NCBI GenBank assembly: GCA_016206505.1
Contig: JACQRJ010000064.1
Coordinates: forward strand, 1 to 33,896
Reading direction: 5' to 3'
Length of the DNA: 33,896 nt
Source of the DNA: Candidatus Peregrinibacteria bacterium
GTDB lineage: Bacteria > Patescibacteriota > Gracilibacteria > UBA1369 > LOWO2-01-FULL-3
The notes under the pieces are model-generated. The model was given only the letters and a program-made list of their open reading frames with translations. It did no database searches and was not told the DNA's origin. Within the stretch, counting starts at the first letter, position 1. Each line of letters begins with the position of its first letter. This document shows, piece after piece, positions 11,563 to 16,930 of this stretch. Position numbers and translations under genes: made by a program.

Positions 11563-11591
11563 TTGACGGTGAGCGTACGCTCACCTATACT
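11563..11591 (+). promoter_or_regulatory. recA promoter with an 18-bp perfect palindrome as spacer (putative operator, 11568-11585)
   Basis: TTGACG-17 nt-TATACT; GGTGAGCGTACGCTCACC equals its own reverse complement. Confidence 0.8.
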
Positions 11592-11611: not shown

Positions 11612-11730
11612 GAAGCTCTGAAAATCGATGGAATGCAATGAGGCAACGAGCTTACGCTCAAACCGTATGCGCTATACGGTGCGAAGTAAGCGAGGAAGGC
11701 GACGCAACATTACGCGATTTTCAGAGCTTC
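11612..11730. repeat. Palindromic element copy A (recA 5' leader)
   Basis: GAAGCTCTGAAAATCG...CGATTTTCAGAGCTTC perfect outer arms; central CCGTATGCGCTATACGG; interior near-identical to copy B. Confidence 0.93.
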
Positions 11731-11745
11731 TATAACCCCAAAACT

Positions 11746-12795
11746 ATGACAGAGAAGGATGAAAAAAAGAAAGCTATAGAACTTGCTATGGCTCAAATAG
11801 AAAAGAATTTTGGTAAAGGTGCCATTATGCAGATGGGCGACATGGCCCGAGTGCCGATAGAGACAATACCTACCGGATCTCTTTCTCTGGATATTGCGCT
11901 CGGCGGAGGAATTCCGAGAGGCAGAATTGTTGAAATCTATGGTCCGGAAAGCTCCGGCAAGACTACTTTGAGTTTGCATATTTTGGCTGAGGCGCAGAAA
12001 AAAGGCGGCATTGTTGCCTTTGTGGATGCCGAGCATGCGCTTGATCCGGAATACGCAAAAAGAATAGGTGTAAAAGTGGAGGATCTGCTTTTGTCGCAGC
12101 CGGACAGTGGAGAGCAGGCTTTGGAAATCGTGGAAACATTGGTGCGCAGCAATGCGGTGGACGTGATTGTGATAGATAGTGTGGCGGCATTGACTCCACG
12201 GGCGGAAATCGAAGGTGATATGGGAGACAGCCACATGGGTTTGCAGGCGAGACTGATGAGTCAGGCCCTTCGTAAGATTACGGCGGTTGTTTCGAAATCA
12301 AAGACTACAGTGATCTTTTTGAATCAGTTGCGTATGAAGATCGGCGTGATGTTTGGCAATCCGGAAACTACTACAGGAGGGCAGGCTTTGAAGTTTTATT
12401 CTTCAATAAGAATGGACATCAGGGCGGCTACCAAAATTCAGGATTTAACTACCGAAGATAAAGAAATGGTCGGCACCAGGGCGAGAGTGAAGATTGTAAA
12501 AAATAAAATCGCTCCGCCATTTAAGACTGCAGAATTCGACATTATGTATAACAAAGGTATTTCTTTTGAAGGTGATTTGATTGATCTCGCTGCAAAATAC
12601 AATGTTTTGAGAAAGTCCGGTGCCTTTTACAGCTATGGCGACACAAAATTGGGACAAGGTAGAGAAAATTGCAAATTGGCCTTGAGTGAAAATAAAAAAT
12701 TGCTGGATGCAATTACGAAAGATGTGAAAACTTTGGTTTATGGTTCGCCAAAAGAAAAAGAAGAGACTATTAAAAAAATGCCGGCAAATGCCTAG
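11746..12795 (+). CDS. recA: RecA recombinase (ORF stays open upstream to ATG 11638 inside copy A)
   Basis: [14 protein letters not shown] Walker [27 protein letters not shown]. Confidence 0.97.
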
Positions 12796-13654
12796 GAAAC
12801 TTCTGAAAATCGATGGAGTGCAAGGAGATGAGGAGCTTCCGCCGGAGCCGCCCGCCTTCGGCGGGCGGCGAGAAGGAAGCTACGAAATTGACGCAGCATT
12901 GCACGATTTGCAGAAGTTTCCAGACTATCAGGACTCTGCAAAAGCGTCAGATGCAAGGCGGCAGGAAAACCTCGACCGCAGTGTGCTGGCTTGCACAAGA
13001 GGATCGAGGTTTTCCGACAACGCAGCATGTGACACTTTTGCAAAGTCCTACTATGAAAAATTGATGCAATATGCTTTCCATATTCTGTCCAGAAAGAGGT
13101 ATACGGTGAAGGAAATGAGGCAAAAACTGGTTAAATATGTAGGCGGCATGCTGAAAAACGGTGCAATGCTAGGAAACAAGGAGGCTGTGCAGGAGCCGCC
13201 CGCCTTCGGCGGGCGGCGAGAAGAAAGCGGCACCGTTGACGAAGCAGTGTACCGTTTTCGACATGCCTCAAGAGAGATTCATGGCGCAAAACTCATTAAT
13301 GAGGGAGTTTTGCGCCTTGAGGAGCTTGGATATCTAAATGATGAATTATATGCGCGTGATTACCTGGCTCAAAGAATTAAATTAAGACCGAGGGGAAAGA
13401 TTTTGTTGAGAAAGGAGTTGATTTTGAAAGGAATTGATAAAGCGATTATTGAAAAAGGTATTTTTGATTCTGAAATTGATGAATTTGAATTGGCAAAGGA
13501 TCTGCTTCTGAAGAAGGTAAAAAAATTGGCAAAATACGATAAAAAGACGCAAAAATCCAAGGCTTATACCTTTTTAGCCTCAAGGGGATTTGGAAGAGAT
13601 GCTATTTACAGAGCAATGGAATCTTGTTACGATAACAATGCAAGCTGGGATTAA
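12788..13654 (+). CDS. recX: RecX-like regulator with N-terminal and internal sequence encoded by palindromic elements
   Basis: RecX helices [66 protein letters not shown]; internal ATG at 13064 is an alternative start. Confidence 0.8.
12795..12921. repeat. Palindromic element copy 1
   Basis: GGAAACTTCTGAAAATCG...CGATTTGCAGAAGTTTCC arms; core GCCGCCCGCCTTCGGCGGGCGGC. Confidence 0.9.
12930..13049. repeat. Palindromic element copy 2
   Basis: AGGACTCTGCAAAAGCGTCAGATGC pairs with GCATGTGACACTTTTGCAAAGTCCT. Confidence 0.88.
13145..13267. repeat. Palindromic element copy 3, in frame inside recX (123 bp, 41 codons)
   Basis: GGCATGCTGAAAAACGGT...ACCGTTTTCGACATGCC arms; same GC-rich core as copy 1. 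Confidence 0.88.
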
Positions 13655-16806: not shown

Positions 16807-16930
16807 AGAAACCTCCGAAAATCGCGTAATGTTGCGTCAACTTCCTCGCTTACTTCGCACCGTATAGCGCATACGGTTTGAGCGTAAGCTCGTTGTTTCC
16901 TTGCATTCCATCGATTTTCGGAGGTTTCTC
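16806..16930. repeat. Palindromic element copy B (between convergent pilB and dprA)
   Basis: GAGAAACCTCCGAAAATCG...CGATTTTCGGAGGTTTCTC perfect 19-bp outer arms. Confidence 0.95.

Follow-up and report, generated by a model that had tools for sequence, protein, structure and literature searches.

The palindrome in the recA promoter of this member of the Candidatus Peregrinibacteria is, judged from its sequence and distribution, very probably the LexA (SOS) operator of the lineage, to which LexA would bind and thereby keep recA blocked until DNA damage occurs. The palindrome was noticed in a window of 33,896 nucleotides, which is the whole stretch of DNA that was analysed and in which positions 11563-11591 read TTGACGGTGAGCGTACGCTCACCTATACT. 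The features of the recA locus are as follows:

11563..11568, plus strand: -35 hexamer TTGACG of the recA promoter, whose last base doubles as the first of the operator (sequence; TTGAC abuts the box in relatives)
11568..11585, no strand: predicted LexA operator GGTGAGCGTACGCTCACC with the conserved half-sites GGTGAG and CTCACC and a variable six-base core (sequence, sites in the genome, relatives)
11586..11591, plus strand: -10 hexamer TATACT of the recA promoter (sequence; recurs in relatives)
11746..12795, plus strand: recA coding sequence, 349 amino acids, the gene under the operator (TIGR02012, 538.7 bits; the start agrees with the recA starts of relatives)
12740..13654, plus strand: open reading frame downstream of recA with RecX domains from about 13067 (Pfam RecX_HTH1-3), possibly co-transcribed with recA

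The operator is a perfect palindrome of 18 bp and the only perfect palindrome of at least 18 bp in the window. It had been predicted to lie between TTGACG and TATACT and to form the spacer of the promoter; the former is correct, but the palindrome comprises the 17-bp spacer plus one base, as it shares position 11568 with the end of the -35 hexamer. First-order Markov sequences contain on average 0.33 perfect palindromes of at least 18 bp per window, and 28% of them hold at least one, so that the palindrome is not significant by itself; it gains significance from its placement in the promoter and from its recurrence.

The 1.15-Mb source genome contains five exact copies of GGTGAG-N6-CTCACC and one copy with one mismatch. 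These six sites precede recA, lexA (two sites, 24 bp apart), radA/sms, a Bro-N gene and an HNH-like gene, whose product has no Pfam match and was read as HNH-like because of its Cys/His pattern. The sites at recA, lexA, radA and the Bro-N gene share a common layout, in which TTGAC is followed by the box and a -10-like hexamer. Matches with up to two mismatches are as frequent as background (19 in the genome versus 16 for a reversed control pattern), and only sites with no or one mismatch were therefore used.

The named close matches of the source genome are metagenome-assembled genomes of Candidatus Peregrinibacteria and Gracilibacteria. A palindrome not conserved upstream of recA in relatives would have counted against the original prediction, but it is conserved, as seen in 30 recA loci including that of the source genome, some of which come from genomes closely related to one another: 28 have exact half-sites and 29 have at most one mismatch, the lone outlier belonging to family f15, which has its own variant box. 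TATACT follows the box in 20 of 29 recA promoters. A box with at most one mismatch was also found at 27 of the 28 lexA loci whose upstream sequence could be used (lexA of G024 was left out of the 28 and its box was seen separately), and most of these promoters carry a second copy around 21-28 bp downstream; the lexA promoter of G011 has three-mismatch sites only, and the lexA boxes of families f3, f7 and f11 are degenerate with up to two mismatches. Eight well-assembled relatives contain 36 exact GGTGAG-N6-CTCACC sites, compared to none for the reversed control pattern. Of the 17 genomes that represent the order, the source genome included, 16 carry the composite operator-promoter TTGACGGTGAG-N6-CTCACCTA with at most one mismatch, and none of 364 genomes from the rest of the phylum does; the single genome of the order that lacks it belongs to f15. 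A search of viral contigs for this composite found none. Across the relatives, the outer six bases on either side are near-invariant, whereas the inner six are variable and often non-palindromic; at recA, they tend to alternate between pyrimidines and purines. Several exact sites in G036 and in other genomes have no recognizable promoter around them. G036 (L115, L117-L119) contains several exact sites whose core is GACAGG or GACAGA; two of them are located near contig ends, and the promoterless sites of this genome possibly belong to a repeat.

The box is common to the lexA and recA promoters of the same genome and extends to further DNA repair and damage-inducible genes. In the relatives, the genes directly 3' of the box include radA and dinD (NF008573, 312 bits with a cut-off of 242) as well as genes for a Y-family polymerase, RmuC, a PIF1-like helicase, a cytosine methylase and a Fic protein; Bro-N, RhuM, AntA and KilA-N genes are numerous in the same position. 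Y-family polymerase genes are present in 30 of 60 genomes and often lie right after lexA or after a box of their own. Further sites had been anticipated at promoters of repair genes, and those of lexA, radA, dinD, the Y-family polymerase, rmuC and the PIF1-like helicase indeed carry them. The proposal that the palindrome is a divergent DNA-damage operator is thus supported by the presence of the box at lexA, recA and repair genes and by a canonical LexA protein encoded in the genome.

The lexA product of the source genome, encoded at L003:1533-2153, consists of 207 amino acids, passes the TIGR00498 equivalog model (180.8 bits, cut-off 110.95) and combines a LexA DNA-binding domain of the winged-helix type with a peptidase S24 domain. 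An alignment with solved LexA structures revealed that the cleavage site Ala93-Gly94 and the catalytic residues Ser129 and Lys166 are kept; LexA is therefore expected to undergo RecA-stimulated self-cleavage. Its recognition helix reads SDNSVLKHL, and its own promoter harbours two copies of the box. Downstream of lexA lies dinB, from which it is separated by two small genes, while dinB directly follows lexA in several relatives. The small gene pair (L150:933-1455, contig C5) resembles a MazE-type antitoxin and a ParE-type toxin, with weak matches below the Pfam cut-offs. The Y-family polymerase domain match of dinB itself (L150:1456-2766) spans 522 nt compared to about 444 in relatives, which suggests that this gene holds an in-frame insertion.

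Since GGTGAG-N6-CTCACC fills the space between the -35 and -10 hexamers, RNA polymerase should have no access to the recA promoter while a LexA dimer is bound. Upon DNA damage, RecA filaments would trigger the self-cleavage of LexA, and the genes under the box, recA, lexA and radA among them, would be induced together; dinB, located behind lexA, would probably be induced as well.

Two other explanations of the palindrome have to be weighed against a LexA operator. It could have arisen by chance at a single promoter or act as a hairpin in the transcript, and about one in four such windows is indeed expected to hold a perfect palindrome of 18 bp. Chance was rejected on the basis of the conservation in relatives: the box is kept at recA and lexA over many genera, and the reversed controls gave no site. 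A hairpin is argued against by the inner six bases, which are often non-palindromic in relatives, and the palindrome would not be transcribed from the recA promoter, as it lies between the -35 and -10 hexamers. Taken together, this explanation is extremely improbable. Slightly more room is left for the idea that a dimeric regulator other than LexA binds the box and controls lexA, recA and radA, for which the dissimilarity between the box and the classical LexA consensus sequences could be cited; however, lexA promoters carry two copies, as autoregulation would predict, the targets are typical SOS genes including dinD, and the box varies with the recognition helix of LexA between families, which makes such a regulator very unlikely. 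A LexA operator is the reading preferred here.

The variation between families is best seen by comparing LexA helices with the sites at lexA promoters. Families f1-f14, f16 and f28 have, with few exceptions, helices resembling SDNS[IV]LKHL, and the site at their lexA promoters is GGTGAG-N6-CTCACC or closely similar to it. In two families, the box alters jointly with the DNA-recognition helix: the SDGF[IV][VI]HC helices of f15 are accompanied by ATGAG-N6-CTCAT-type sites, which stand at lexA and in most members also at recA, and the SKN[AS][VI]AKVV helices of f19 by sites that resemble GTGnACGnnCGTnCAC at lexA and, in less perfect form, at recA. Mapped onto the LexA tree, on which f15 is nested among the GGTGAG types, the box classes require three changes, the least possible number, compared to a mean of 23.0 after shuffling; since the classes were assigned by family, this count summarizes the site calls and is no independent measurement. 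It is likely that the class harbours a natural series of LexA boxes altered jointly with the recognition helix of the repressor, with GGTGAG-N6-CTCACC in nearly all families of the order, ATGAG-N6-CTCAT arisen inside it in f15 and GTGnACGnnCGTnCAC in f19, and with the box of the main lineage also preceding many genes that resemble those of phage antirepressors (Bro-N, RhuM, AntA, KilA-N). The recA promoters of distant class members gave no match to four test patterns. Other candidate LexA sites were noticed in such distant members (L122-L136, L172-L186), for instance GTATACACACTGTATAC in f21 and GAAC-N4-GTTC-like sites in f20.

Repeats surround recA in the source genome. Elements of around 120 bp with terminal inverted arms are located at positions 11612-11730, 12795-12921 and 16810-16929 of the window and also at 13151-13257; the genome contains 17 matches to this repeat, about ten of which are near full length. 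One copy lies between the operator and the start codon of recA; in relatives, box and gene are mostly 60-110 bp apart. A longer recA open reading frame beginning at 11638 runs through a repeat element, and 11638 was dismissed as an unlikely start. A second, different long inverted repeat is found between recA and recX (12930-13049), with arms of 57 nt that are 74% complementary.

The classical LexA boxes are CTGT-N8-ACAG in E. coli and GAAC-N4-GTTC in B. subtilis, and the site matches neither consensus, as the original prediction had stated. As in E. coli, an operator for a LexA dimer overlaps recA, lexA and dinD-type promoters; however, half-site, spacing and recognition helix differ, and no match was obtained when the site was read against CTGT-N8-ACAG. 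The B. subtilis type also has a palindromic LexA operator at the recA and lexA promoters, and the centre of the site described here, GAGC-N4-GCTC, shares the dyad of GAAC-N4-GTTC with one base off per half-site. Relatives do not keep the C of GAGC, most recA sites having T instead, and the conserved half-site, in contrast to the B. subtilis type, is the longer GGTGAG, which lies farther from the dyad. GAAC-N4-GTTC was looked for at the lexA promoters of the order and not found, with one to four mismatches to it. The GTGnACG-type sites of the sister family f19 look intermediate in this comparison.

A study by Sanchez-Osuna, Barbe and Erill from 2017 (doi 10.1111/1462-2920.13826) reportedly deals with the SOS network of Patescibacteria, i.e. 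with the same superphylum and regulatory system, and it may already describe the box reported here. This work is cited among studies of direct-repeat LexA motifs (PMC7739468), whereas the Peregrinibacteria box is palindromic. LexA boxes of other phyla include TTAC-N3-GTAA, GGTT-N10-AACC, GTTC-N7-GTTC and a direct repeat in Balneolaeota (PMC8565304, PMC7739468). As here, these boxes are lineage-specific and belong to a LexA-controlled SOS network, but none equals GGTGAG-N6-CTCACC, and the conserved half-site GGTGAG is unlike the LexA motifs that both papers list. A literature search for Peregrinibacteria in combination with LexA or the SOS response found no paper.

With the box and its targets, an uncultured lineage of small-genome bacteria gains an SOS operator and an SOS regulon that are concrete and open to testing, and SOS genes can be found in its genomes by scanning for the composite operator-promoter. 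The joint changes of helix and operator within one repressor family can be used for testing how LexA specificity evolves. If the proposed series of boxes is correct, the antirepressor-like genes of the Bro-N, RhuM, AntA and KilA-N types would be damage-inducible through the box.
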